A DNA stretch of 64,000 bases from Oceanobacillus damuensis. Its GTDB lineage: Bacteria; Bacillota; Bacilli; Bacillales; Amphibacillaceae. Below are positions 3,273 to 60,520 of the stretch, one piece after another. Where the stretch lies: the NCBI RefSeq assembly GCF_001618145.1, contig NZ_LQNF01000028.1, positions 1 to 64,000 of the forward strand, in the 5' to 3' direction. The notes below the pieces were generated by a model that worked only from the letters and a program-made list of their open reading frames with translations, was not told the origin of the DNA and did no database searches. Both the position numbers and the translations under genes were made by a program. Each line of letters starts with the position of its first letter. Position 1 is the first letter of the stretch.

Positions 3273-5702
3273 ATGATGTTTGGACGATTTACAGAAAGAG
3301 CACAGAAAGTATTGGCTTTATCACAGGAAGAAGCAGTAAGGCTCGGCCACAATAATATTGGTACAGAGCATATTTTGTTAGGTCTGGTCCGAGAAGGAGA
3401 GGGTATTGCCGCGAAGGCTTTGCAGTCCCTTGGTCTAGAGGTATCAAAGATTCAGGAAGAAGTTGAAAAACTAATCGGTGTGGGAAAGCAGCCGATGCAA
3501 TCGATACACTATACACCACGTGCAAAGAAAGTGGTTGAGCTATCTCAAGATGAAGCAAGGAAACTTGGTCATTCCTACGTAGGCACAGAGCATATATTAC
3601 TTGGTCTGATTCGTGAAGGAGAAGGTGTTGCCGCCCGGGTATTGAATAATCTGGGGGTCAGCCTAAATAAAGCGAGACAACAGGTTCTTCAGTTGCTGGG
3701 AAGCAATGAATCTCAGGCAGGACGTCAGGGTCGTGCAGGACAACAGTCAAATGCAAGTACACCTACCTTGGATTCGCTGGCTAGAGACTTAACTGTCAGT
3801 GCCAAGGAAGGTAAGATTGACCCAGTTATTGGCCGTGCCAAGGAAATTGAACGTGTCATCCAAGTATTAAGCCGCAGGACGAAAAACAATCCGGTATTGA
3901 TCGGGGAACCTGGTGTTGGTAAAACTGCTGTAGCTGAAGGGCTTGCACAGCAGATTATTGATAACGAAGTCCCGGAGACATTAAGGGATAAGCGTGTCAT
4001 GACCCTTGATATGGGAACCGTCGTTGCTGGTACTAAATATCGCGGTGAGTTTGAGGATCGCCTGAAAAAAGTAATGGAAGAAATTCGTCAGGCAGGAAAT
4101 ATTATTCTATTTATTGATGAACTCCATACATTAATTGGTGCTGGCGGTGCAGAAGGTGCTATCGATGCTTCTAATATATTAAAGCCTTCGCTTGCCCGAG
4201 GTGAGTTGCAATGTATCGGTGCAACCACATTGGATGAATATCGCAAGTACATTGAAAAAGATGCAGCACTTGAACGGAGATTCCAGCCGATCCAAGTTGA
4301 TGAGCCTACATTGGATGAAACTATCCAAATCTTAAATGGACTTCGTGACCGTTATGAAGCACATCACCGTGTAACGATAACTGACGAGGCTATCGAAGCA
4401 GCAGCTACACTTTCCGATCGTTATATAACGGATCGCTTTTTACCGGACAAAGCCATTGATTTAATCGATGAAGCAGGTTCCAAAGTAAGGCTTCGCTCCT
4501 ATACGGTTCCACCTAATCTGAAAGAACTGGAACAGAAGCTTGAAGAAGTTCGAAAGGAAAAGGATGCAGCAGTACAGAGCCAGGAATTCGAAAAGGCCGC
4601 GTCTTTACGTGACTCCGAACAGCGTTTCCGTGAAGAACTGGAGAAAACGAAGGATGAATGGAAAGAAAAACAAGGTCAGACAGATTCCGAAGTGACAGTG
4701 GAAGATATCGCGAGTGTCGTTTCCATCTGGACTGGAGTTCCGGTATCCAAATTAACAAAGGACGAAAGTGAACGACTGTTAAATATGGAAGAAATTTTGC
4801 ATAACCGTCTTATTGGCCAGTCAGAGGCAGTCGATGCTGTTTCTAAAGCTATACGCCGGGCACGTGCCGGTTTAAAGGATCCGAAGCGTCCAATTGGTTC
4901 ATTCATCTTCCTTGGACCAACAGGTGTAGGGAAAACGGAGCTGGCCCGTGCATTGGCAGAAGTAATGTTCGCTGATGAAGATGCAATGATACGAATTGAC
5001 ATGTCTGAGTATATGGAGCGACATGCTACTTCCCGTCTGGTTGGTTCACCTCCAGGTTATGTTGGATATGAAGAAGGTGGACAGTTGACGGAAAAAGTTC
5101 GTCGGAAACCATATTCGGTCGTATTGCTTGACGAAATCGAGAAGGCACATCCGGAAGTGTTTAATATTTTACTGCAAGTACTTGAAGACGGACGATTAAC
5201 TGACTCAAAAGGTCGTCTGGTCGATTTTCGTAATACGGTCATCATCATGACATCGAATGTTGGAGCGAGTGAACTCAAACGAAATAAGTATGTTGGGTTT
5301 AACATGGGTGATGAAAAGCAGGAACATGAAACTATGAAATCCAAAGTAATGGACGAATTGAAAAAGGCATTCCGCCCTGAATTCCTGAACCGGATTGATG
5401 AAACAATTGTATTCCATTCCCTGGAGAAGGAGCATATGAAGGATATTGTCACCCTTATGCTGGAACAATTGCAACGTCGTTTGAAAGGCCAGGATATCCA
5501 TTTGACCCTGACGGATAAGGCTGTTGAAAAAATTGCTAATGAAGGTTTCGACCCTGAGTATGGTGCAAGGCCATTGCGCAGGTCAATCCAGAAGAATATA
5601 GAGGATTTGCTGTCTGAAGAATTGCTCAAAGAAACGATTGCCAAAGGCCAAAAGATTAAAATTGGGCTAAACAATAAAGGTGATTTTACCGTTCTCACCT
5701 AA
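3273..5702 (+). CDS. clpC: ClpC, AAA+ unfoldase of the ClpCP protease
   Basis: An 809-residue Hsp100 unfoldase. The N domain contains two repeats (about 1-145, each with an [13 protein letters not shown]-like motif), which in B. subtilis bind phosphoarginine and adaptors. AAA-1 has Walker A GEPGVGKT near residue 211. A coiled middle domain with a UVR motif covers about 415-480. AAA-2 has Walker A GPTGVGKT near residue 548. It feeds substrates to ClpP. The start is the first of two ATGs behind AGGAGGG. It closes the CtsR operon; no strong hairpin terminator directly follows, only repeat-rich DNA. Confidence 0.98.
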
Positions 5703-6107: not shown

Positions 6108-7481
6108 TTGGCTAAGAGAAAAACAAAGTATGTCTGCCAGGATTGCGGATATGAATCAGCAAAATGGATGGGCAAATGTCCTGGCTGTAATAACTGGAAT
6201 ACGATGGTTGAAGAAATCGAAGCCTCCACTGTAAGGGGCAGGAGTTCTATTTCCAATGGAACACAATCGGTAAGTAAACCGGAAAGTATCACGGCAATCG
6301 AATCACAAAAGGAACCAAGAATTACTACTGCCATGAAAGAGTTTAATCGTGTTCTTGGTGGAGGAATCGTTCTCGGGTCATTGGTATTAATCGGCGGCGA
6401 TCCTGGTATTGGTAAGTCGACCCTGCTCTTACAAATATCTTCCCAGCTTGCAGAAAAACAATTGCCCGTACTGTATGTATCCGGTGAGGAATCGACACGT
6501 CAGACTAAGCTTCGCGCGGACCGATTAGGCATTAAGTCAGACTTACTGTATGTTCTATCTGAGACGAATTTGTTTGATATTGGAAAGCAAATTGAAGAAG
6601 TTCGCCCGTCTTTCGTAGTGATCGACTCGATTCAAACCATTTTTAAGGAAGAAGTGACAAGTGCACCGGGAAGTGTTTCCCAAGTGCGTGAATGTACGGT
6701 TGAACTGATGAAAATTGCAAAATCGAATGGAATCCCGATATTTATCGTCGGTCATGTTACAAAAGAAGGAGCCATTGCAGGTCCAAGGCTATTGGAACAT
6801 ATGGTGGATGCCGTTCTGTACTTCGAAGGTGAAAGACACCATACATATCGTATTTTGCGTGGAGTCAAAAACCGATTTGGAAGTACAAATGAAATGGGCA
6901 TCTTTGAAATGAAGGAAGAGGGTCTGAGAGAAGTTCTGAATGCATCCGAAATATTTCTGGAAGAACGTTCTGAGGGAACAGCGGGTTCAACCGTTGTCGC
7001 ATCAATGGAAGGAACAAGACCAGTCCTTGTAGAAATCCAAGCCTTAATCTCACCTACCAGCTTTGGGAATCCAAGAAGAACTGCTACAGGTATTGACCAT
7101 AATCGGGTACCGTTACTAATGGCAGTGCTTGAGAAGCGGGTTGGACTTATGCTTCAGAATCAGGATGCTTACATTAAAGTTGCTGGAGGCGTCAAGCTGG
7201 ATGAGCCTGCCATTGATTTGGCCCTTTCTGTCAGCATAGCATCCAGTTACCGTGACAAGCCTACAAATCCCGACGATATTTTTATAGGCGAAGTTGGTTT
7301 AACCGGTGAGATCAGAAGAGTTTCCCGTATTGAGCAGCGTGTACAGGAAGCGGCCAAGCTTGGATTTAAGCGGGTAATTTGTCCAAAAAACAATCTGGAA
7401 GGATGGACTTTTCCAAAAGGCATTAAAGTTATTGGTGTAAGTACCGTTCAGGAAGCACTGGAAATAGGAATAATCAGCTGA
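6108..7481 (+). CDS. radA: RadA, DNA repair and recombination ATPase
   Basis: A 457-residue RadA/Sms protein. The N-terminus has a four-cysteine zinc finger (C10, C13, C24, C27), then a RecA-like ATPase with Walker [11 protein letters not shown] near residue 96, the family motif KNRFG near 253, and a Lon-protease-like C-terminal domain. It promotes branch migration and processing of recombination intermediates. The chosen start is TTG 6108, which gives the family N-terminus (AKRKTKYVC); an upstream GTG at 6096 overlaps the AGGAG ribosome site and is unlikely. disA, normally next, is missing. Confidence 0.95.
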
Positions 7482-7534
7482 TGTGGGAATTTTTAGAAAT
7501 TGAATCGTTTTATGTGCTGTGCTATGATTTGCTT

Positions 7535-7701: not shown

Positions 7702-8793
7702 GTGCTCAATAAAGTTGTGCATTTGTTTTTTATTATCCTGGGTGGTACCATTGGATACTTGTATGTCCCGGAATTAATTAGGATATTGAACTTCACTGAT
7801 TCCGGATGGGCTAGTTCGCCGTATTTAGGCATGATCATAGGTGCAATTATCTTTTTTATCCTTTCATACTGGCTGGCAGATTATATTTTGGACTTTTTAA
7901 GATGGGTTGAAGACGCGCTTATTAAGCTTCCGGCAATGGATTTGTTCTTCGGTAGCATCGGTTTGATTGTTGGATTGGTTATTGCATATTTTATCAACAT
8001 GCCCCTTCAGGATATAAACATTCAAGTTGTTTCACAGGTTCTGCCATTATTTATTACGATTGTTCTTGGTTATCTAGGTTTCCAGGTTGGGTTCAGACGC
8101 AGGGAGGAGTTTGTTGGCCTGATGAAAACAAACAAAAAGGAACGACGCCGCCCGTTGGAGGGTGAAGATGCGGACCTGCTTATACCTAAAGCAAAAATTT
8201 TGGATACAAGTGTTATTATCGATGGCAGAATTGCAGATATTTGTCAGACTAATTTTCTTGAAGGAACGATTATCATCCCGCAGTTTGTTCTTGGAGAATT
8301 ACAGCATATTGCTGACTCTTCCGATACACTGAAAAGGAATCGAGGGCGCCGTGGTCTGGATGTACTGAATCGTATTCAAAAGGAATTGCCTGTAAAAGTA
8401 GAAATCTATGAGGGTGATTTTGAGGAAATATCTGAGGTTGACAGCAAACTGATCAAGCTTGCTAAAGTAATTAATGGGATTGTTGTAACCAATGATTTTA
8501 ACCTGAATAAAGTGTGTGACCTTCAAGGTGTGAGCGTACTGAACATCAATGATCTTGCAAATGCTGTTAAGCCTGTTGTACTGCCGGGAGAAGAACTGGT
8601 CGTGCAGGTGATCAAAGATGGGAAAGAGCATAATCAGGGCGTAGCATACTTGGACGATGGTACTATGATCGTTGTTGAAGAGGGCCGCGATTATATTGGT
8701 CAAACCATTGAAGTTATCATTACGAGTGTATTGCAGACATCTGCCGGACGGATGATTTTTGCAAAACCGAAATTACTTGAAAAAGCACTGTAA
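7702..8793 (+). CDS. PIN and TRAM domain membrane protein (YacL family)
   Basis: A 363-residue protein with about four membrane segments in residues 1-125, a PIN-type nuclease domain starting at the acidic motif KILDTSVIIDGR (about 165-176; further conserved acidic residues follow, as in VVTNDFNL), and a C-terminal TRAM RNA-binding domain (about 295-350). It is presumed to be a membrane-anchored RNase or RNA-binding protein; its substrate is not known. The start is GTG 7702, six bases after AGGAGGTG; a GTG at 7693 lies inside that ribosome site. It matches the gene that follows disA in B. subtilis. Confidence 0.9.
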   Translation: MLNKVVHLFFIILGGTIGYLYVPELIRILNFTDSGWASSPYLGMIIGAIIFFILSYWLADYILDFLRWVEDALIKLPAMDLFFGSIGLIVGLVIAYFINMPLQDINIQVVSQVLPLFITIVLGYLGFQVGFRRREEFVGLMKTNKKERRRPLEGEDADLLIPKAKILDTSVIIDGRIADICQTNFLEGTIIIPQFVLGELQHIADSSDTLKRNRGRRGLDVLNRIQKELPVKVEIYEGDFEEISEVDSKLIKLAKVINGIVVTNDFNLNKVCDLQGVSVLNINDLANAVKPVVLPGEELVVQVIKDGKEHNQGVAYLDDGTMIVVEEGRDYIGQTIEVIITSVLQTSAGRMIFAKPKLLEKAL

Positions 8794-11412: not shown

Positions 11413-12793
11413 TACGCTGACAAGAAATAAGGAAGATTTTAAACCACTTGAAGAAGGTAAAGTGAGTATGTATGTCTGTGGGCCGACGGTTTATAACTAT
11501 ATTCATATAGGAAATGCAAGACCTGCTATTGTGTTTGATACGGTAAGGAGATATTTTGAATATAAAGGTTTTGATGTTGATTATGTATTGAATTTTACCG
11601 ACGTTGACGACAAGATTATCAAGACGGCAAACGAATTGGGAGTAGAAGTCCCTGAACTCGCAGACAAATTTATCCAGGCCTATTTGGAAGATGTGGGGGC
11701 ACTGGGGGTCAAGAAGGCTACACATAATCCACGGGTCATGGAAGCGATGGATGATATAATTCGTTTTATTGATGTGCTTATTCAGAAAGAATATGCCTAT
11801 GAAGCCGAGGGTGATGTCTACTTTAAGCCGCGAGCATTTGAAGGATATGGAAAGCTGTCCCATCAGTCCATTGATGAACTTCGCTCCGGTGCAAGAATTC
11901 AGATTGGCGAGAAAAAGGATGATCCGCTTGATTTTGCCCTTTGGAAAAAAGCGATAGACGGACAAATCTCATGGGATTCACCTTGGGGGAAAGGACGCCC
12001 TGGATGGCATATTGAGTGCTCGGCAATGGTAAAGAAATATCTTGGTGACACAATCGATATTCATGCAGGAGGGCAGGATCTGGCATTTCCTCATCATGAA
12101 AATGAGATTGCCCAATCCGAAGCCATGAATGGTCATACGTTTGCAAACTATTGGATGCATAATGGGTATATTAATATCAATAATGAAAAAATGTCCAAAT
12201 CTCTCGGTAATTTTGTGCTCACAAGAGATCTGATCGCAAACCACGATCCTAAGGTTCTGAGGTTCTTTATGCTCAGTGTGCATTATCGGAATCCAATTAA
12301 TTTCACGGAGGAATTGCTTGAAAGTGCAAAAAACAGCTATGATCGAATCAAGACAGCTTACCAAAATCTGGAGCACCGTAAACAGTCAAGCATGAATCTG
12401 GTCGATGATACGGATAGTTGGATAACAAAAGTCGATGAGATGAAAAAACGTTTTGAGACTGAGATGGATGACGACTTTAATACTGCAAATGCTATTTCTG
12501 TACTATTTGACTTGTCCAAAGAAGCAAACGTGTACCTCCAGTCTAAACAGACATCTGCAAAAGTTATTGAATACTTCCAGAAAACGATGCTGTCGCTGCT
12601 TCAAGTACTCGGAATTGATTTGGCTGAAACAGACGTGCTCTTGGATGAGACGATTGAAGAACTTATTGAAGAAAGAAATAAAGCAAGGAAAACCCGTGAT
12701 TTTGCACGTGCGGATGAGATAAGGGACTTATTGAAAGAAAAGAATATCATTTTGGAAGATACACCTCAAGGGGTTCGTTGGAAAAGAGGGTAA
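11393..12793 (+). CDS. cysS: Cysteinyl-tRNA synthetase
   Basis: A 466-residue class I synthetase. The zinc-ligand cysteine is C29 in MYVCGPT, the HIGH-type motif is HIGNAR just after, further zinc ligands lie in WHIECSAM and the [13 protein letters not shown] segment, and KMSKS is intact near residue 266. The C-terminal helical domain ends in the family-typical GVRWKRG. The start lies inside the cysE 3' end with GGGAGCAAGGA upstream. It is the main consumer of the cysteine made by the CysE pathway, which explains the shared T-box. Confidence 0.97.
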
Positions 12794-13198: not shown

Positions 13199-13945
13199 AT
13201 GGATCAGGAAATGATTATTGGCAAAAACCCAGTGATAGAGGCTTTAAAATCTGGTCATTCGGTTAACAAGGTATTGGTCTCAGAACAGTTGAATCCAAAT
13301 GTGTTAAGGAAATTAAATCAACTGGCAAGAGAAGCGGGGACAATTGTGCAAAAAGTGCCTAAATCCAAGCTGGACCAGATGGAGTCCGGGAATCACCAGG
13401 GAATAATAGCCTATGTTGCCTCCTACCAATATGCATCCATTGAGGATTTGTTCCAGCGTGCCGAGGAAAGAGAAGAAGATCCATTTTTCATTATTTTGGA
13501 TGAACTGGAGGACCCGCATAATTTGGGATCCATTTTACGTACAGCCGATGCGACGGGTGCACATGGAGTTATTATACCGAAAAGACGCTCTGTAGGTCTG
13601 ACAGCTACAGTAGCCAAAACGGCAGCGGGTGCAATAGAGCACATACCGGTAACGAGAGTGACGAATATCGCAAACACCATTGATGAACTGAAAGAACGGA
13701 ATGTGTGGGTAGTCGGCACAGAGGCAGAAGCGACGGAAGATTACCGTAAGCTTGATGGGAGCCTCCCGATAGCGCTGGTTATCGGGAATGAAGGAAAGGG
13801 CATAAGCAGATTGGTCCGCAAAAAGTGCGACTGGACGGTAAATCTCCCGATGAAAGGAAAGGTAACCTCCTTAAACGCCTCGGTGGCCTGCAGTCTGCTA
13901 TTGTACGAGGTGTACCGAAAAAGGTATCCGCTGGGTGAGGCATAA
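13199..13945 (+). CDS. rlmB: 23S rRNA 2'-O-methyltransferase RlmB, SPOUT class
   Basis: A 248-residue SPOUT (TrmH-type) methyltransferase: an L30e-like RNA-binding N-domain (about 1-75), then the knotted SAM domain with DELEDPHNLGSILRTADA, the motif NEGKGISRLVRKKCD and the knot motif LNASVACSLLLYEV. It methylates a ribose in 23S rRNA (Gm2251 in E. coli numbering). The ATG at 13199 with GAAAGGAG upstream is preferred to an in-frame start within mrnC. The stop overlaps the rae1 start (TAATG). Confidence 0.93.
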   Translation: MDQEMIIGKNPVIEALKSGHSVNKVLVSEQLNPNVLRKLNQLAREAGTIVQKVPKSKLDQMESGNHQGIIAYVASYQYASIEDLFQRAEEREEDPFFIILDELEDPHNLGSILRTADATGAHGVIIPKRRSVGLTATVAKTAAGAIEHIPVTRVTNIANTIDELKERNVWVVGTEAEATEDYRKLDGSLPIALVIGNEGKGISRLVRKKCDWTVNLPMKGKVTSLNASVACSLLLYEVYRKRYPLGEA

Positions 13946-52338: not shown

Positions 52339-52731
52339 TTGGCACAAGTACAATATTACGGCACAGGCCGTAGAAAAAGCTCAACTGCCCGTGTACGTCT
52401 AGTACCAGGTACAGGTAATGTTACAATCAATGGTCGCGATGCAAAAGACTATTTCCCATATGAAACTCAACTATTAATTTTGAACCAACCATTAGTTACA
52501 ACTGAAACTCAAGGAACTTACGATGTTTTAGTTAACGTTCATGGTGGTGGATTCACTGGTCAAGCTGGTGCAATCCGTCATGGTATCGCTCGTGCTCTTC
52601 TTGAAGCAGATCCAGAATATCGTGGAAGCTTGAAGAGTGCAGGATTCCTGACTCGTGACGCTCGTATGAAAGAACGTAAAAAATACGGTCTTAAAGGCGC
52701 TCGTCGTGCACCTCAGTTCTCAAAACGTTAA
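52339..52731 (+). CDS. rpsI: 30S ribosomal protein S9
   Basis: A 130-residue S9 whose C-terminal KR tail reaches the P-site tRNA (ending APQFSKR). TTG start behind AAAGGAGG, as [14 protein letters not shown] is the family N-terminus. The last 50 bases of the gene recur at 55443 and 60418, so the 3' end appears to be an integration site; the gene itself is intact, as expected when an integrating element restores the end of its target. Confidence 0.97.
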
Positions 52732-52732
52732 T
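52681..52732. repeat. rpsI 3' end, copy 1 (presumed attL)
   Basis: The native gene end, from AAATACGGTCTTAAAGGC to AACGTTAAT. It aligns to copies 2 and 3 with only a few substitutions and single-base gaps across about 50 bases. The pattern is that of attachment-site repeats left by site-specific integration. Confidence 0.75.
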
Positions 52733-52747
52733 AAACTTAAGTTTCAA

Positions 52748-52783
52748 GGCTCTTTTCACTTATGTGGAAAGGGTCTTTTTTAT
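52748..52783 (+). terminator. terminator after rpsI
   Basis: GGCTCTTTTCAC and GTGGAAAGGGTC pair over 12 positions (with some G-T pairs), loop TTAT, then TTTTTT. Confidence 0.85.
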
Positions 52784-52958
52784 GCCCAAAAGTGCTTTTG
52801 ACCCATTTACCGAAGAGGGGCAATATATACTTATCGAATTTTGATTCAATAGATCTCTTTGTGCTTAATTTGACTGTTTTAAAATTATTTGAAATCACCA
52901 CTGATTAAATACATTATGAAAAGTAAGGTTTTCATTCTTTTTATTGATATACCACTGG

Positions 52959-53063
52959 CTAATTTAGTTTAGCAACGGCTGTTTGTAATTCTTTTTTTGT
53001 TTTATATCCCCTGCGTGTTGTTAATTGCCTTTTTCCTGTCTCAGGGTTAATCAGCTGCAACAT
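52959..53063 (-). pseudogene. tyrosine integrase, N-terminal fragment
   Basis: On the minus strand about 34 codons read INPETGKRQLTTRRGYKTK and onward KELQTAVAKLN before a stop. This is the pattern of the AP2-like or arm-type DNA-binding domain at the start of phage and ICE tyrosine integrases (consensus like DPETGKRK, then RGFKTKKEA). The rest of the enzyme is missing. It lies about 230 bases inside the presumed island end, where such integrases normally sit. The remaining gap between rpsI and the aldolase (52784-52958, 53112-53354) shows nothing else. Confidence 0.55.
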
Positions 53064-53077
53064 TATATCAATCACTA

Positions 53078-53111
53078 AAAGAAGAGCAAACCCAGTAAAT
53101 AGGGTTTGCTC
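53078..53111 (-). terminator. terminator of the aldolase transcript
   Basis: GAGCAAACCC and GGGTTTGCTC form a perfect 10-bp stem with an 8-base loop; reading on the minus strand it is followed by TTCTTTT. It lies about 240 bases beyond the aldolase stop. Confidence 0.75.
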
Positions 53112-53354
53112 ATTAATATGATGCAGAATAGGAGAACAGGTAGAAAACGGTCAACTTTGTTACTTAGGGTTAAATAAAAATACCAATAGTTTAGTGTATC
53201 CCCATAGAAAAGCTTTCTTGAATATTCCGTCATAAAATATTTTCTTTATTGAAAACAAAGAAGATGAATAACAAAAATTTCATCTTCCCTAACTTCGCAA
53301 ATCGTTTTCAGCCTATTTTCCGACTAATTAAAATGTACTCATAATGATAATATA

Positions 53355-54047
53355 CTATATCTTCACATCATTTTGATTTAATAAGGACTTTACACCATAT
53401 TCTTTATACCAGTCATCATTAAACATGCTGACATTAGCTTCAGTTGAAGGATGTGAAAGCAAGTTTTTAATAATATCTGGTGCAAGTGTTACACCATGTG
53501 CCCCATTGACACAAACATTATGAACTTGTTGAACGTTTTTAAAGCTTGCAGCGAGTATTTGACAGTTAAACTTATGTTTATCTAATATTTGTGTTAATTC
53601 TTTAACAACTTGTATACCATCCCCTGCAAGATTATCAATGCGATTAACATAGGGAGTTACATAAGAGGCACCTGCTTTTGCTGCAACATATCCTTGTAGC
53701 GGCGTGTATATTGTTGTCGCCATTGTTCTGATACCTAATGTTTTTAATATTTTAATTGCCTTTATCCCTTCGATTGTAGCAGGGATTTTAATCACCACTT
53801 TACCTGGAACTTTTTCGATAATATACTTTGCTTCTTCAACGATTTCTGTTGCTTTAAATGTTAATGTTTGTACGTATAACTCTCTATCATTTCCGATTAC
53901 ATCTCTAATTTCTTTAAGTAAATGTAAAAAGTTCTTTTTTTCTTTAACTATAATACTAGGGTTTGTAGTTACACCGTCAATTGGAAAATAGTCAACAAGT
54001 TCTTTGATATCCTCTATGTTAGCTGAATCAATCACTAATAACATCAT
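53355..54047 (-). CDS. Fructose-6-phosphate aldolase / transaldolase-like protein
   Basis: A 230-residue TalC/MipB-type small transaldolase. The Schiff-base lysine is K87 in VVIKIPAT, and the family segments DGVTTNPSII (24-33) and ATTIYTPLQGYVAAKAGA are intact. Such enzymes cleave fructose 6-phosphate or related sugar phosphates, or transfer dihydroxyacetone units; the exact substrate is not clear. The start is one of two adjacent ATGs behind AAAGGATG. It was the last gene of a sugar operon whose upstream members (54066-54912) are now broken. Confidence 0.85.
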   Translation of the reverse strand: MMLLVIDSANIEDIKELVDYFPIDGVTTNPSIIVKEKKNFLHLLKEIRDVIGNDRELYVQTLTFKATEIVEEAKYIIEKVPGKVVIKIPATIEGIKAIKILKTLGIRTMATTIYTPLQGYVAAKAGASYVTPYVNRIDNLAGDGIQVVKELTQILDKHKFNCQILAASFKNVQQVHNVCVNGAHGVTLAPDIIKNLLSHPSTEANVSMFNDDWYKEYGVKSLLNQNDVKI

Positions 54048-54065
54048 TTCATCATCCTTTCATTT

Positions 54066-54391
54066 TTAAATAAGATCAGATTTACACTGATTATCACTCG
54101 GATAATTAAGGCTGACATGTTCTCTTATTCTATCCATCGCTTTCATTGTTTTATATGAAATTTTATTAGGGTTTAATGAATAATCTGCATCCTTGTTATC
54201 AGTTAAAACAAAAAATTCATTCAATTATTAATGCATTAAGGGACACGGTTGTGTTTAACTGTCAATTGTTCAATAGATCGAATCTCTACCTGTTCTTTTT
54301 GAATAGACGGCTGTTAGCTGAAAGTTTTTAACTGGGTTTGGACATGCAGAAATTGGCCTGTTACCATTTGTACCAACCACCCCAACACGTA
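54066..54391 (-). pseudogene. Gfo/Idh/MocA-family dehydrogenase, internally deleted remnant
   Basis: Two fragments on the minus strand. The upstream one (54391-54270) reads VRVGVVGTNG, then NFQLTAVYSKRTGRDS, matching the NAD-binding start of Gfo/Idh/MocA oxidoreductases (G-x-G-T-N then FELTAVYSR). The downstream one (about 54215-54066) reads NPNKISYKTMKAMDRIREHV and then NYPSD, matching the usual C-terminus (SLEVMKVMDEARK...FPAD). The catalytic middle is gone. Its stop lies 18 bases before the aldolase start, as in an operon. Confidence 0.6.
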
Positions 54392-54568
54392 CCCTTCTCT
54401 AACCTCTTTTGCTTATTTTAATACTTAGTCTAAAACGATTCCAATTTACACGTCTGATCTTTATGATTTTTCCAAAAATTTAAGGGGTAGGTCTTTATCG
54501 TAATCAACTTTTTTAATTATATTAGAAAATGAGAATCCTTTATAGAGGCTAGTGTGATTAAACTTTTC

Positions 54569-54912
54569 TTAGTTTGCTAAAAAAATGACTTGTTTTGAAC
54601 GCTTTGCCACTATCTTTTTAATATATGCATCTTCTCGATTTGCAAAGTAAAAAAATTATAGCAGAATCTTCATAAGCTTTTATTTCATCTTTAAGATGTG
54701 ATAATGCAATTCCGCCATGGGTTCTAAATGCAGTTCCCTTCCTCAATTAACTTGATAACATCTCTATGTGCAGTATCACGAGAAATGATCAACATATTAC
54801 AGACTTCCTGACTGGAGATCTTATTGTGATCTCTTAGATTTTCTAAAATCGTCAATAATCTTTCCTCTTGGTAAATATCAATTGCCTCCTTTTTAACATT
54901 ATTATAAGTCAT
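54569..54912 (-). pseudogene. DeoR-family sugar operon repressor, frameshifted remnant
   Basis: The first 62 codons are an intact DeoR winged HTH (ERLLTILENLRDHNKISSQ, then ISRDTAHRDVIKLIEEG). One extra base near 54733 shifts the frame; the other frame continues exactly as the family does: TAFRTHGGIALSHLKDE. A second shift near 54645 leads to NREDAYIKKIVAKRSKQVIF, after which a stop ends all similarity. Full-length members are about 250 residues, so this regulator is dead. A further short open stretch (about 54450-54530, ending KFLEKS) is unassigned. Confidence 0.75.
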
Positions 54913-55160
54913 ATTAAGTATTTTTGTTAAGTGATTTTAGGTTTATTATTTATAAACAAATCCTTACGTATATAAAAAAAATAGATTGAAGATTATCCTC
55001 CATTTACAATAAATATATTTTTAACCTCCAAAATTGTACGTAAAGATTAGTATCATTGATTTCAACTTTATTTAGTAATTGGATAGTATAGCTGAACAAA
55101 GATAAAATGGGGAAAGACCTGTGAAAGTAGGCACGTGCATTTCAATTGAAAAATTACAAA

Positions 55161-55310
55161 ATGCAAGTTAGTGTAAATGAACAAATAAATAAACAAGAAT
55201 CTAATGTTAATGAGAAGTTACTTCAATTGATTTATCACACTCGGATAATGGGCATGTATACAAATTATAAGTTTTTCGATAAAAACAGTAATCTAATTGA
55301 TGAGTATTAA
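55161..55310 (+). CDS. hypothetical small protein, doubtful
   Basis: A 49-codon frame (starts MQVSVNEQINKQES, ends NLIDEY). No recognised domain and no good ribosome site. After its stop another frame reads YVPYDDDSIKGHVSRIRIEE, which hints at a longer, broken gene over 55161-55426. It may be island cargo in decay. The surrounding gap 54913-55160 is AT-rich with nothing seen. Confidence 0.25.
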   Translation: MQVSVNEQINKQESNVNEKLLQLIYHTRIMGMYTNYKFFDKNSNLIDEY

Positions 55311-55386
55311 ATTTTTAAATCCGTCTTATATGTTCCTTATGATGATGATTCCATTAAAGGGCACGTTTCTAGAATAAGAATCGAAG

Positions 55387-55411
55387 AAACGCCTGTTCCA
55401 AGCGTTTTTCT
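55387..55411 (+). terminator. terminator-like hairpin before copy 2
   Basis: AAACGC and GCGTTT arms with a 9-base loop and trailing TTCTTCTT; about 30 bases before the second rpsI-end copy. Confidence 0.55.
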
Positions 55412-55442
55412 TCTTGTTATATGAAGCATAAAAAAACATAAG

Positions 55443-55492
55443 AAATATGGTCTTAAAGGCCTCGTCGTGCACCTCATTATCAAAACGTTAAT
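55443..55492. repeat. rpsI 3' end, copy 2 (presumed internal att)
   Basis: AAATATGGTCTTAAAGGC, CTCGTCGTGCACCTCA and CAAAACGTTAAT match the rpsI end with two single-base deletions and a few substitutions. The preceding part of rpsI is absent, so this is not a gene duplication but a leftover of the gene end. Confidence 0.75.
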
Positions 55493-55565
55493 ATCGTTTA
55501 GATATCAATGTTTTCAAACCCTCTCCAAAAATTTTTTTACCTTGAGAATTGAATTGAATGCTCTT

Positions 55566-55790
55566 TCAAAAATCCATGAAGTTTTCAAATAGATGAGCTA
55601 CCTTTTCTTTTGCTGCATTTGTGATATGGGTATAGCTATTCAGAGTTGTTTGAATGTCTCAAGCGAACTTGTATATCATTGATAGTCGCACAGGCTTCAA
55701 AAAGTAATGATGCTTGCGTATGAAGTAATTCATGAATGGTAACTGAACTCCGTATGACGTTTAAAGAAACTTGCATGCTTGTCATTTAGA
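55566..55790 (-). pseudogene. tyrosine integrase, C-terminal fragment
   Basis: On the minus strand one frame reads VTIHELLHTQASLLFEACAT and then INDIQVRLRHSN, equivalent to the family's TxHxLRHTHASLLxxAGA and VQxRLGHS motifs; after a frame change it continues YTHITNAAKEKVAHLFENFM and a stop, which contains the nucleophile tyrosine (Y in YTH) and the family C-terminus. Frameshifts and the loss of most upstream sequence show it is inactive. It starts about 75 bases inside copy 2, the usual place for an island integrase. The 420 bases between it and the GH3 gene show no gene. Confidence 0.75.
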
Positions 55791-56211
55791 TAAGCAAGTC
55801 AAAAAATCTCATTTTACCTTCTACGTGCCATTAGCGAGTGAGATTGCAGTATCCATTTTCACCGCGATTAGCTTTTCAAATATGATAGTGACGACGCTTA
55901 TTTAATACATAGAAGTAGTTCCAGGCGTTCAGTATATTAGAAAAATGAAGTATAATGCTCATTAAAATTTATATATTTTGATGTTTATTTGATAAATCAT
56001 TGCTTGCTACACTATTTGAGTACCTCTTTCAGGACTATAGGAGTGTTACTAATAGCGTGTTTTTTTGATCCATTTCTGTAATTAATCGTACATTAGACTA
56101 ATAGACAATAAATAGTTTGGTGGATAAACTAATACAAGTGAGAAGGGAGAGGTTAAAACGAAATATTTCAGTACATAGAAAAGATACATAGTTTGTAAGG
56201 GAGAGATTGAG

Positions 56212-58632
56212 ATGAAAAAACGAGTTAGTTCAATTTTTATGACAGCAATGATCCTCATGTCTTCGTTAGTAAATCCTGCTAATGCGATGACCGGTGGAAC
56301 GGAAGGGACCAACCCTTGGATGAACACCGAGCTGTCTGCTGAGGAGCGCACCGAGCTGCTTCTCGATGAGATGACGATGGAACAGAAGATCCAGCAAATT
56401 GCTGTTTCACGCTTCAATGAGAACGACAAAGGTGAGACAGTCGTCATTGACAAGGGTGGTACAAGCGAGTACCAAAACGGCGAATTCGCACCTCAGGGTA
56501 CCTTGCCAGGGTGTGAGTGGCAGGACACTGGCCGACAAATCCGTGGGATCGAGGAACTGGGCATCCCCACAATCCGCATGACCAACGGTGGTACTGGCGT
56601 GAAGGGCGGATCGTGTGGCAATGATCCGGAGGCGACGGGATTACCGTCTACCCCGGCGATGGCTGCAACCTTCAACCGTGAGCTGAACTATGAGGCTGGC
56701 CGAATTCTCGGCGAAGAAACACGTGCCTTCGCGCATCACGTGATGCTCGGGCCTGGCATGAACTTAATACGTCACCCGTACGGTGGCCGTAACTATGAAT
56801 ATTTCAGTGAGGACCCGTATTTGACTGGTATACTTGCGACTGAACAAGTCAAAGGCATCCAGGACCAAGGCGTTCAGGCACAGCTTAAGCACTTGGCCGG
56901 TAACGAGCAAGAGACTGAGCGATGGACGATGGGTGTCCAGGTTCCTTCACAGACCATGAACGAGCTGTACATGCTGCCTTTCGAGATGACCGTCAAGGAT
57001 GCTGACCCAGCCTCCGTGATGTGCTCCTTCCCGGATGTTAACGGCACTTATGCTTGTGATAGCTCTGAATTGCTTCAAGATGCCCTGCGCGATAACTGGG
57101 GCTTTGACGGTTATGTTATGAGTGACCGTCGCGCAATTCACGACACAGTTGCTGCCATCAAGGCGGGCACGAATGTCGAGCTAGACTGGGCACCACAGTA
57201 CTACACAGAGGAGAAAATCCAGGATGCTCTTGATTCTGGTGAAGTAACCGAGGACGACATCGATAATCTTCTTCGTCCACGCTACATCAAGATGATCGAG
57301 TATGGACATATGGATGAGCCTTACGATGAGTTCCTGCCGGAGATTGTCGATCCGATTGCTAACGGTGCAAGTGCTCGTAAGATGGCAGAGGAAGGTTCCG
57401 TACTGTTAAAGAACGATAACGACTTCTTGCCACTGGACGGTGAACCGGAGTCAATCGCATTGATCGGCCTGGAGTGGTTCGCAGGTGAGGCAAAGATGTC
57501 CCCACGCTCTATTCGGGACAATAACGATAACGTAAATACTCCTTATACGGTCACTCCGCAAGAAGGACTGGAGAACGTTATCGAGGAACTAGGCTATGAC
57601 ACTGAAGTAACATACAACGATGGCCGTGACCCTGAGGCTGCCGCTGAGCTGGCCGCTGAGTCCGACGTCGTACTTCTCATGATCGGTGACAACCCACATG
57701 AGACTGTGGACCGCGATACCCTTGGTTTCCCTGCCATCGACCTTGATGAACATAAGGATCGAGAAAACTATGTGGAGCAGGAGCCACTAATCGAGGCGGT
57801 TCTTGAGGCGAATGCGGAAAATACCGCTGTAGTTCTGAAGACTTCCGGTACGGTGCTTATGCCGTGGCTGGATGAAGTACCTGCAGTACTTGAAGCTTGG
57901 TTCCCAGGCATGGAGGATGGAAATGCCGTAGCCAACTTGCTTTACGGTAAAGTCAATCCTTCCGGTAAGCTGCCTATGACATTCGGTGCAACCGAGCGTG
58001 AAGCTGCCTTTGCAACAGAAGTGCAATTCCCTGGAACGCGTCAGGACACTGGTAAGACAGGCGGACCAGGCCCATACGGTGACGGTTCCGACCAATTAAT
58101 CGCTCAATACACTGAGGGTCTAGAGATGGGCTACCGCTGGTATGAAGCAAACGATGTGGAGCCAGTATTCTCATTTGGACACGGTCTATCGTATACGACT
58201 TTCGAGTATAATGACCTTAAGGTGAAAAAGGTACGTGGTGAAGGTAATTCGAATGGAAAAGGCAACAAGAGTTCCCTGACCGGTATTGAAGTGTCCTTCA
58301 CAATCAAGAACACAGGTGACGTTGCCGGAAAAGAAGCGGCACAGGTCTATCTGACACTTCCGGACGAGGCAGGACAGCCAACTAAACGTCTTGTCAACTT
58401 TGAGAAGGTTGATCTTGAGCCTGGTGAGAGTGAGCGTGTGACTGTGGAAATTAACCAGGCTGACTCTAACCACCCATTCTCTTATTTCACTCCGGAAGAG
58501 CCGGACAATCTGGAGAACTGGGCTGATGGCGAGTGGGAAACTGTTGACGGAAAGTACCAAGTGCATGTTGGTGGTTCCTCGGCAGACACCCCGCTGGAAA
58601 AGAGCGTGCCGTTGAAATTTCAAACTCAGTAA
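56212..58632 (+). CDS. Secreted glycoside hydrolase family 3 protein (beta-glucosidase or xylosidase type)
   Basis: An 806-residue exported enzyme. Residues 1 to about 25 are a signal peptide (KKR, hydrophobic core, ANA cleavage site). The GH3 N-domain has the substrate motif KHLAGNEQE (from K226) and the nucleophile aspartate D305 in VMSDRRAIH (usually SDWGATH, so the tryptophan position is changed to arginine). The alpha/beta sandwich domain and a C-terminal fibronectin-III-like domain (about 690-800) follow. It probably removes non-reducing-end beta-sugars; which sugar cannot be told. GC content is higher than in its neighbours (33 of 60 in a sampled line). ATG behind AAGGGAGAG. Confidence 0.87.
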   Translation: MKKRVSSIFMTAMILMSSLVNPANAMTGGTEGTNPWMNTELSAEERTELLLDEMTMEQKIQQIAVSRFNENDKGETVVIDKGGTSEYQNGEFAPQGTLPGCEWQDTGRQIRGIEELGIPTIRMTNGGTGVKGGSCGNDPEATGLPSTPAMAATFNRELNYEAGRILGEETRAFAHHVMLGPGMNLIRHPYGGRNYEYFSEDPYLTGILATEQVKGIQDQGVQAQLKHLAGNEQETERWTMGVQVPSQTMNELYMLPFEMTVKDADPASVMCSFPDVNGTYACDSSELLQDALRDNWGFDGYVMSDRRAIHDTVAAIKAGTNVELDWAPQYYTEEKIQDALDSGEVTEDDIDNLLRPRYIKMIEYGHMDEPYDEFLPEIVDPIANGASARKMAEEGSVLLKNDNDFLPLDGEPESIALIGLEWFAGEAKMSPRSIRDNNDNVNTPYTVTPQEGLENVIEELGYDTEVTYNDGRDPEAAAELAAESDVVLLMIGDNPHETVDRDTLGFPAIDLDEHKDRENYVEQEPLIEAVLEANAENTAVVLKTSGTVLMPWLDEVPAVLEAWFPGMEDGNAVANLLYGKVNPSGKLPMTFGATEREAAFATEVQFPGTRQDTGKTGGPGPYGDGSDQLIAQYTEGLEMGYRWYEANDVEPVFSFGHGLSYTTFEYNDLKVKKVRGEGNSNGKGNKSSLTGIEVSFTIKNTGDVAGKEAAQVYLTLPDEAGQPTKRLVNFEKVDLEPGESERVTVEINQADSNHPFSYFTPEEPDNLENWADGEWETVDGKYQVHVGGSSADTPLEKSVPLKFQTQ

Positions 58633-58726
58633 GGAAGATAGCAAGGGAAACACCCGTCAATGGGTCCCTCGCTATGGGATGACGATGGCGACCTGGTAGG
58701 GGTCGCCAGGCATCTCGAAAGTGGTG

Positions 58727-58775
58727 AGCCCGCGGGGCTTGGCGAATCACGCCGAGGCCGCGGGCTTATCGTTTT
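58727..58775 (+). terminator. GC-rich terminator between GH3 and beta-helix genes
   Basis: AGCCCGCGG and CCGCGGGCT enclose a second stem (CTTGGCG/CGCCGAG) and precede TTATCGTTTTT. The long, almost all-GC stem is unlike every other terminator here and resembles those of high-GC actinobacteria. Confidence 0.8.
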
Positions 58776-58825
58776 TCTCGACGCCTTCATGGGCGACGAG
58801 AGTCATGGAAGGATGTGAGTAGTTG

Positions 58826-60361
58826 ATGAAGAAATACGCTCGGAATAGCAGGCGAGCTCTAGGGCATTCGTGGTTGGTGTTCCTTGTTCTGATGGTCTTC
58901 TTGGCCGCATGCACCGTCGAGAAACCTGACAAGCCAGCCGAGAGCGATGAAACTGTAGAACCGATACCGTCCGAGAGAGGTGAAAACGTGGAACCTGCCC
59001 AGTCCGAGCACGGCGACTGGCAGGCTCCCGGCTTGGTGGACCGGTCCGGCAACCCGATCGAGGTGCCGATGCCGGATCCGGCATCGGGCAGGACACTGGA
59101 CGTTTCGGACTTCGGGGCAGATCCGAATCCGGACTCACACGACGACGCAGCAGCCATCAGGGCGGCCCTGGACGCGGCCGAACCGGGTGACGAAGTCCTG
59201 CTGCCGGCCGGCACGTATGACCTGCGCACCACTGACCCGACCGACGAGTCGGCGAACATCGTGCTTCGCAGCGGCGTGGACCTGCGCGGTGAAGGGCAGG
59301 AGCGTACGGTGCTGCTGACCTCCCTTGATGGCGAGGATGACAGCAGGGTAATACGCGGCTCAGGCGTCCATGACGTCATCGTCGCTGACTTTACCATCAC
59401 CTCCCGACATGAGGGGCCACTCGGCGACGACCCCGACGACGGCGATGCGAGTGGCGGCCCGATGTACGGAATCTACCTTGGAGCCCCAAAAGGGCAGCCC
59501 AGTTCCCGAGTGCTGGTGGAGAATTTGGGCATCCGCAGGTTCGAGCGCCACGGTATCTCAGTCAAGGCAAGCCGTGAAGTGACCCTCTCCGGAAACTATA
59601 TCAGCGAGGCAACTGCCGTCGGCCCCGGCGGACAGGGCTACGGCATTGCTATTGAGGGGTCAAGGGACCAGCACGATCCGAATGCCGCCAACGATTCCCG
59701 GCACAACGTCGTCATCGGCAATACATTCGATGGCAAGCATCTGCGGCACGCCATTCTGCTGCAGTTCCCAACGCACAACAATCTTGTGGCTGAGAACACC
59801 ATCGTCGGCAGCCTCCTTGACGCCATCGACCTGCACGGCGAGGGTGAATACCTGAACGAAATCCGAGACAACACGGTCACCGGCGGGGATCGGGCGGGCA
59901 TCGCTTTGGGCAATTCTGGAGGGTCCAAGAACAAGCACGACGCCTCAGGACCTGGAAACTGGGTACACTCCAACGACCTGATTGGAAACCGTCAGGGAGT
60001 CCTTGTCATACTGGGAACTCCGGACACCCTCATCGAGGACAACAGGATAACCGCCGGGGAGGATTCGAAAGCCGGAATCGAGGTCCGCAATGCGCCAGGA
60101 ACGAAGTTGCACGGTAACCACATCACTGGAGGGACTGACGGGTTCTGGGCCATCCGGCTCAGTGAGGACCGCGGTACTGAAGGAAGGGGTATTGGAATAC
60201 CCTCGGACATCAGGATTGAGTCCAACGTTATTCGACAGGCTGCTAACGGTATAAGGATGGATGCAGGGAAGGACCTCAGCATGGTGGAAAACATTGTCGA
60301 CGGTATCGAAGGAGACGAACTGAAGGTGGGCGACGGGATAAAAAATTTAATGATACGTTAG
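58826..60361 (+). CDS. Right-handed beta-helix lipoprotein, possible polysaccharide lyase or epimerase
   Basis: A 511-residue exported lipoprotein: signal peptide with lipobox LAAC (cysteine 29), an acidic linker (about 30-85), then VSDFGADPNPDSHDDAAAI, the pectate-lyase-like entry motif, and many parallel beta-helix turns (NYISEATAVGPGG, NTIVGSLLDAIDL, NRITAGEDSKAGIEV, NVIRQAANGIRM). Members act on pectin, alginate or other uronic-acid polymers, but no catalytic residues can be fixed by eye. GC content is very high (42 and 36 of 60 in two sampled lines) against about 40-45% for the window. ATG 58826 is used; TTG 58823 is possible. Confidence 0.82.
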   Translation: MKKYARNSRRALGHSWLVFLVLMVFLAACTVEKPDKPAESDETVEPIPSERGENVEPAQSEHGDWQAPGLVDRSGNPIEVPMPDPASGRTLDVSDFGADPNPDSHDDAAAIRAALDAAEPGDEVLLPAGTYDLRTTDPTDESANIVLRSGVDLRGEGQERTVLLTSLDGEDDSRVIRGSGVHDVIVADFTITSRHEGPLGDDPDDGDASGGPMYGIYLGAPKGQPSSRVLVENLGIRRFERHGISVKASREVTLSGNYISEATAVGPGGQGYGIAIEGSRDQHDPNAANDSRHNVVIGNTFDGKHLRHAILLQFPTHNNLVAENTIVGSLLDAIDLHGEGEYLNEIRDNTVTGGDRAGIALGNSGGSKNKHDASGPGNWVHSNDLIGNRQGVLVILGTPDTLIEDNRITAGEDSKAGIEVRNAPGTKLHGNHITGGTDGFWAIRLSEDRGTEGRGIGIPSDIRIESNVIRQAANGIRMDAGKDLSMVENIVDGIEGDELKVGDGIKNLMIR

Positions 60362-60417
60362 AAAAAATAGTTGGTTATTATAAAAAATCCTTTGAAATTG
60401 CTGAGATAAAAGAAAGT

Positions 60418-60469
60418 AAAATTACGGTCTTAAAGGCGCTCATCGTGCACCTCAGTTCACAACGTTAAT
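60418..60469. repeat. rpsI 3' end, copy 3 (presumed attR)
   Basis: AAATTACGGTCTTAAAGGCG, CTCATCGTGCACCTCAGTTC and AACGTTAAT match the rpsI end, better than copy 2 does. A terminator follows within 15 bases, as follows rpsI itself, so this may be the original downstream flank of rpsI before insertion. Confidence 0.75.
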
Positions 60470-60483
60470 CATATTACCGTTTT

Positions 60484-60520
60484 AAAAAACTCCCAAACCT
60501 TTTGGTCTGGGAGTTTTTTG
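60484..60520. terminator. bidirectional terminator
   Basis: AAAAAACTCCCA and TGGGAGTTTTTT arms with T tracts in both directions. It can end the dctPQM transcript (minus strand) as well as transcripts from the island (plus strand). Confidence 0.88.

Follow-up and report, generated by a model that had tools for sequence, protein, structure and literature searches.

Two decayed integrative islands, probably stacked in tandem, behind rpsI in Oceanobacillus damuensis

Introduction

The 3' end of rpsI, the gene for ribosomal protein S9, is an established point of entry for integrative islands, and the described case closest to the one discussed here is that of Macrococcus caseolyticus IMD0819, in which two islands, McRImecD-1 and McCI, stand in tandem behind rpsI and are accompanied by three direct repeats that contain the rpsI end, with a 61-bp core attachment (att) site (PMC5341023). 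McRImecD-1 encodes a 388-aa tyrosine integrase beside rpsI, and related integrases lie beside rpsI in Bacillus; the large island of M. caseolyticus, which has a complete integrase, the neighbouring island of 2.8 kb, for which the account drawn on here names no integrase, and the composite of the two have all been seen as circles, and excision leaves the right repeat in the chromosome (PMC5341023). In Streptococcus agalactiae, IMESag-rpsI, an element of about 9 kb with a relaxase, always lies at the rpsI 3' end and excises as a circle (PMC5090054), and cis-mobilizable elements (CIMEs) and tandem accretion have been described in streptococci for relatives of integrative and conjugative elements (ICEs) and integrative and mobilizable elements (IMEs) (PMC5704250, whose references name Pavlovic 2004). 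Published work already covers the target gene, the repeat, the stacking of islands and their decay (PMC5341023, PMC6008420, PMC5090054, PMC5704250). Here we describe how the same site is occupied in Oceanobacillus damuensis, in a stretch of 64,000 nucleotides (assembly GCF_001618145.1, contig NZ_LQNF01000028.1, positions 1 to 64,000) that we call the window and to which all coordinates refer unless another label is given. We read positions 52666-60469 as a tandem of two decayed integrative islands that entered stepwise at the rpsI 3' end by means of tyrosine integrases, and we put the probability of this reading at roughly 0.85. It is built on the repeats, on integrase remnants and their orientation, on intact counterparts in relatives, on a locus of another genus in which rpsI is followed by the second island without the first, and on three unlike terminators.

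Three copies of the rpsI end

The rpsI gene (52339..52731, plus strand) is intact, with 130 codons, and its final 66 bp (52666-52731) constitute the first copy of a repeat of 66-68 bp that corresponds to the last 21 codons and the stop codon and begins with the codons ATGAAAGAACGT. Copy 2 (55428..55493, plus strand) forms the att junction between the two islands, and copy 3 (60406..60469, plus strand), recognized by sequence match, is taken as the displaced original rpsI end. The copies are in register, with start-to-start spacings of 2,761 and 4,978 bp; copies 2 and 3 each retain most of the repeat and carry small deletions and substitutions, as expected for ends that are no longer under selection. 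A first-pass annotation of the window had claimed that three copies of the rpsI end bracket two intervals, which is confirmed; its estimate of about 50 bases for the copies was too low, while its statement that they recur without the rest of the gene stands.

With rpsI (52339-52735) as the query against the 4.12 Mb of its own genome (73 contigs), copies 2 and 3 were each recovered at 88% identity (E 8.9e-16 and 1.7e-15), and the next-best match was a piece of only 28 bp on another contig (C20:44062-44089, 96%, E 9.4e-6). The matches listed after it had E values of at least 0.4, and no nearly full-length copy of the rpsI end was found in the genome outside this locus. This distribution bears on an alternative in which the extra rpsI ends would derive from transposition or duplication of a short sequence, with the islands as unrelated insertions. 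The C20 piece lends that idea some colour, as do lone pieces of about 28-30 bp elsewhere in three further genomes (G011, G035 and G039; labels in G denote the genomes compared, G000 being the window's own), but we consider it hardly credible, because the nearly full-length extra copies are confined to this locus, integrase remnants adjoin copies 1 and 2, and the same layout with complete integrases occurs in relatives, the islands of G017 and G009 contradicting it directly. Nor was a dispersed short element with the whole repeat, which the first-pass annotation had named as the contrary case, found elsewhere in the genome. The C20 piece (positions 8064-8090 of locus L054; labels in L denote individual loci) adjoins what by eye is a LysM-type gene, and no integrase was recognized by eye among the four open frames of at least 90 aa there; it could be the remnant of an att site. 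A further match, on contig C1 (E 0.4), sits by eye within an apparent coding frame and was dismissed as chance.

Integrase remnants behind copies 1 and 2

The copies delimit island 1, the aldolase island (52732-55427), and island 2, the glycoside hydrolase family 3 (GH3)/beta-helix island (55494-60405), and each island retains a different part of an integrase gene on the minus strand. In island 1 the remnant (52809..53063) is N-terminal, with the arm-binding domain and the start of the next domain and without the catalytic domain; over 52809-53051 it corresponds to residues ~23-104 of the G017 integrase, it includes a match to Pfam Arm-DNA-bind_4 at 52962-53063 (E 1.4e-6), and it is also matched by an integrase hidden Markov model (HMM). 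In island 2 the remnant (55569..55798) is C-terminal and lies in broken frames, covering residues ~312-392 by comparison with the integrases of relatives and by the HMM; its 49-aa open frame alone gave no Pfam match at E 0.05, and DNA 78% identical to it stands behind rpsI in L088. Only these two parts were found, and neither island has a complete integrase with catalytic residues. Both remnants lie directly behind their repeat copies and converge on rpsI, as do the complete integrases in G017 and G009, and their closest relatives among those compared are G017 for island 1 and L088 for island 2. The integrase fragments that the first-pass annotation had placed next to copies 1 and 2 are accordingly real.

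Occupation of the rpsI site in relatives

All 58 genomes searched, the window's own included, contain rpsI, and five of the 28 Oceanobacillus genomes (G000, G006, G009, G017 and G023) have an additional copy of its end at E < 1e-10, which in G006 and G023 lies on another contig. (Over about 5.4 kb, G022, G004 and G006 do not differ from Oceanobacillus chungangensis CAU 1051, O. piezotolerans YLB-02 and O. arenosus CAU 1183, respectively.) Directly behind rpsI, a complete integrase frame is present in six genomes of the genus (G001, G007, G009, G012, G017 and G027) and an integrase remnant in five (G003, G004, G005, G020 and the window's), as judged with the HMM, which was built from those complete integrases themselves and applied to at most 5 kb behind rpsI (9 kb for the window), with shorter stretches at the ends of contigs or pieces (1.3 kb in G023); weak, more distant matches in G021 and G022 were left out of the count. 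The integrases of G007, G012 and G027 share just 23-26% identity with the G017 and G009 enzymes, which means that more than one integrase family uses the rpsI site. When the order was sampled more widely, a match to the 66-bp end (E up to 1e-6) was present in 393 of 397 genomes, and 35 of the 397 show a second match, wherever located, with at most two candidates scored per genome.

Live-looking islands that combine this repeat with a complete integrase, for which the first-pass annotation had proposed a search, occupy the same site in G017 and G009. The G017 island measures 12.8 kb, and its integrase is complete, with arm-binding and SAM-like domains besides the catalytic one (Phage_integrase, E 3.7e-31). 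Behind rpsI and the integrase gene come, in order, genes for two helix-turn-helix (HTH) regulators and an HTH_17 protein, replication genes, genes for an HNH endonuclease and for an N6-methylase of the restriction-modification kind, and att; nine of the island's proteins were scanned, one of them without a match. Its far att copy, at 13,206-13,271 from the rpsI start, is 97% identical to the near copy, and beyond it, with one large gene between, lies dctM, the gene found downstream in the window (60551). Such an island would appear able to move.

As a side observation, G013, G018, G033 and G002 share a similar terminator behind rpsI, which in the first three is followed by short repeated motifs resembling, by eye, the arm sites of an integrase, and no integrase was detected there by HMM; the region is perhaps a remnant of another element family.

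Order of insertion and exchange of terminators

The order of the two insertions can be read from L088 (Bacillus sp. B15-48), where rpsI is followed by DNA 78% identical over 361 bp to window positions 55428-55759, that is, to copy 2, the terminator region and the C-terminal integrase remnant, and then by GH3 and beta-helix genes at 82%. Since L088 has island 2 directly behind rpsI without island 1, island 1 would have arrived later and displaced island 2; the later element thus lies between the target gene and the resident one, the arrangement by which CIMEs and tandem accretion are recognized, here by way of another genus. Together with the islands of G017 and G009, L088 supports the earlier proposal of tyrosine-recombinase integration, stepwise and followed by decay.

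The terminators were compared by local alignment of the 80 nt behind each stop codon, against maxima from 200 shuffles. The terminator of copy 1 scored best with those of G017, G022 and G004 (97, 94 and 88; next G024 with 61; shuffle maximum 28), that of copy 2 with L088 (48; shuffle maximum 34), and that of copy 3 with G026 and L112 (45 and 44; shuffle maximum 33). Because the three copies are followed by dissimilar terminators, each resembling the one behind rpsI in a different set of genomes, the insertions seem to replace the rpsI end together with its terminator. The same can be followed in other islands: in six of seven far copies tested the best terminator match was another genome's rpsI, the exception being L112b, from a locus whose two units are near copies of each other. 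In G009, the far-copy terminator scores 86 against that of its nearest relative, G027, and 16 against its own proximal one, and the far 66-nt repeat is 100% identical to that of G027 and 98.5% to its own (one base differs); the rpsI bodies of the two genomes are 97.8% identical. This indicates that the islands re-supply the end and the terminator of rpsI, an essential gene.

Two alternatives concern the manner and the order of entry. The window could hold a composite element that entered once with an internal att copy, or a tandem that was formed elsewhere and transferred whole; composite transfer is discussed for other tandems in PMC5704250, and L112 likewise has two att/integrase units behind one rpsI. 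We nevertheless regard this as unlikely, given that L088 carries island 2 alone at rpsI, that the terminators of the three copies are mutually unlike and that the two integrase remnants differ in their nearest relative. A reversed order, in which the GH3 island came last through the distal att and landed on the chromosomal side of an aldolase island already present, is quite unlikely: in principle an island can integrate at an att copy on the far side of a resident one, and copies 2 and 3 both retain most of the repeat, but the GH3 island of L088 is attached to rpsI itself with a copy 2-type terminator behind the gene, and the terminator of copy 1 belongs to the class that stands behind rpsI beside the complete integrase of G017.

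For the stepwise tandem that we favour, the following history can be proposed. Each island would have entered through a tyrosine integrase acting on two copies of the rpsI end, one carried by the island and one in the chromosome, with the crossover probably near the 5' edge of the repeat, as the Macrococcus work suggests by analogy; on entry, the gene would receive its end and terminator from the island, and the previous end and terminator would shift to the island's far side. The GH3/beta-helix island would have come first, turning the original rpsI end into copy 3, and the aldolase island later, turning the end brought by the first island into copy 2. Both integrase genes would then have been cut down by deletions, one to its N-terminal and the other to its C-terminal part, and since both integrases are reduced, neither island should now move by itself; both may be regarded as passengers in the sense in which PMC5704250 treats cis-mobilizable elements.

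Several observations weigh against this reading. None of the 28 genomes of the genus showed, by dctM synteny and the first genes behind rpsI, an exact empty site (rpsI, terminator, dctM), for which the first-pass annotation had proposed a search along with the live islands; the stretch behind rpsI was 6.1 kb or less in G001, G015 and G023. The gene dctM lies within that stretch in G016, G017, G024 and G026 and never directly behind rpsI; G026 comes nearest, with no integrase or second repeat detected, yet with dctM 2.0 kb further on, and in G013, the nearest relative, dctM is about 51 kb from rpsI. The neighbourhood behind rpsI is not stable within the genus, and no near counterpart of the aldolase island was found among the relatives searched. 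Both islands are without a complete integrase, and integration by these very enzymes is suggested by analogy. The terminator scores of copies 2 and 3 exceed the shuffle maxima by modest margins, in shuffles that preserve base composition only; the far-copy terminator of G017 is weak (37 against a shuffle maximum of 32), and the match of G009 with G027 behind the far copy ends after 51 bp. The copy 3 terminator class also occurs beside an integrase, as a remnant in L112, G024 scores 61 with the copy 1 class and yet has no integrase detected, and the G004 integrase remnant is closer to the integrase of G009 than to that of G017. With the integrase behind rpsI complete in G017, a short remnant in G004, a weak distant match in G022, decayed in L112 and undetected in G024 and G026, island-borne and native terminators are not cleanly sorted, and copy 3 can only be presumed to be the native end.

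Cargo of the islands and its occurrence elsewhere

The accessory genes that had been noted in the intervals are identifiable from Pfam matches. Island 1 begins with a hairpin and T-run directly 3' of rpsI (52746..52781, plus strand; read from the sequence), of the class seen behind rpsI in G017, G022 and G004 and taken as brought by the island. Its cargo consists of a complete gene for a transaldolase/fructose-6-phosphate aldolase-like protein of 230 aa (53355..54047, minus strand; TAL_FSA, E 8e-54), a decayed DeoR-type helix-turn-helix fragment of 62 aa (54724..54912, minus strand; HTH_DeoR, E 1e-5) and, beside copy 2, a possible EndoU-nuclease fragment of 54 aa with a weak match below the gathering score (55146..55310, plus strand; XendoU, E 1.2e-4). 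The aldolase-like protein has matches at E up to 1e-60 in four other genomes of the 159 in the family, at 53-56% identity. Island 2 carries a GH3 gene of 806 aa (56212..58632, plus strand; Glyco_hydro_3 and 3_C) and a gene for a right-handed beta-helix protein of 512 aa, counted from a TTG start (58823..60361, plus strand; Beta_helix, E 5.3e-20); a terminator hairpin (60484..60519, plus strand), most like the rpsI terminator of G026 and, almost equally, of L112, stands behind copy 3. The GH3 and beta-helix genes are G+C-rich: in 500-bp steps, the G+C content is 0.28-0.33 over 53001-56000 and 0.49-0.67 over 56501-60000.

The species-level genome scan gave 46 loci with GH3 relatives, 31 of which have a beta-helix relative in the same stretch, and the pairing is seen in many Bacillales. 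Within the genus, GH3 at E up to 1e-200 is present in five of 28 genomes, and only that of the window is at rpsI, judged by position. The pair stands directly behind rpsI with integrase pieces in L088 and in L112 (Paenibacillus sp. FJAT-29882), the latter being another tandem, with one more att copy and one more integrase remnant. The integrase piece of L112 is 43-63% identical (two segments) to the island 2 remnant while the cargo DNA is 84% identical, which suggests separate loading of the cargo. Upstream of the pair in L082, L084, L085 and L102 lies glmS (named by eye from the sequence), and the pair may also use a glmS hot spot. Relatives of the pair occur in Micrococcus, Citricoccus and Georgenia records, the first two metagenome-assembled, and these relatives and the G+C content hint at an actinobacterial source.

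Direct repeats flank the pair in L084, L089, L094, L096, L107, L108, L109, L110, L112, L114, L119 and L157, L100 has an inverted repeat only, and none was found in the remaining loci of the 39 searched (L113, too short, was skipped); tRNA genes are near the pair in L086 and L101 only, among 37 loci. In L084 (Paenibacillus castaneae), the pair is bracketed by a 245-bp direct repeat (5110-5354 and 13255-13499, 95%) that starts 14 bp behind glmS and is followed by a short frame resembling, by eye, the start of a tyrosine recombinase. The L110 locus (Sporosarcina sp. ACRSM) has the pair flanked on either side by a piece like the rpsI end (7414-7485 and 12249-12303) with a similar terminator; rpsI was not found in the 18.4-kb stretch, and the pair may sit further inside a longer stack. 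A second GH3 gene is present in the window's genome (G000:C12:80320-82734, L157), with a 91% identical protein and beta-helix homology following, at an unrelated place beside genes that by eye serve sugar uptake and sugar cleavage. The idea that the pair is a transposon with fixed ends was considered and rejected, as no constant inverted ends were seen by eye and the left edges vary: the left edge looked sharp at 55865 in several loci, and elsewhere the homology reaches the start of an apparent divergent gene (by eye). The right edges coincide with the end of the beta-helix gene.

Tentatively, and with somewhat less than even confidence, we propose that the pair is a travelling cargo of actinobacterial character, which rpsI islands with dissimilar integrases have picked up on more than one occasion and which is also placed behind glmS (four genomes of the scan), and that the rpsI end in these Bacillales is a layered record: with every island that arrives, the gene would exchange its last 21 codons and its terminator, so that displaced ends can be read like strata. 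That the same two carbohydrate-acting genes recur at rpsI in more than one genus may be a sign of selection for this cargo.

Comparison with known systems

The double insertion at rpsI, which the first-pass annotation had thought worth describing as a new case, is less new than supposed, since the published Macrococcus account already includes a composite with three repeats (PMC5341023), and the finding leaves the knowledge of integrase targeting unchanged. What is new is the Oceanobacillus example, the survey of the site and the GH3/beta-helix cargo at rpsI in more than one genus; among the papers searched, none mentions both Oceanobacillus and rpsI. No transfer genes were seen among the seven window proteins or the nine G017-island proteins scanned, the latter including a phage-type replication protein.

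Like IMESag-rpsI, the window islands lie at the rpsI 3' end; unlike that element, which has a relaxase (PMC5090054), they show none among the seven proteins scanned with Pfam. With CIMEs they share att sites at both ends and the loss of integration genes; the streptococcal cases are described for relatives of ICEs and IMEs (PMC5704250). The likeness is closest to McRImecD-1 and McCI, as reported in PMC5341023: a tandem behind rpsI, three repeats with the rpsI end and an integrase beside rpsI. As in islands of the McRI type, direct repeats of the rpsI end stand at both borders, and integrases converge on rpsI, here as remnants only; unlike the large Macrococcus island with its complete integrase, those of the window hold integrase pieces only, and in place of a cargo that includes mecD they carry an aldolase-like gene and the GH3/beta-helix pair. 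The window thereby extends the list of genera with frequent island traffic at the rpsI end, and it offers a tandem in which the order of the two insertions is readable by comparison.

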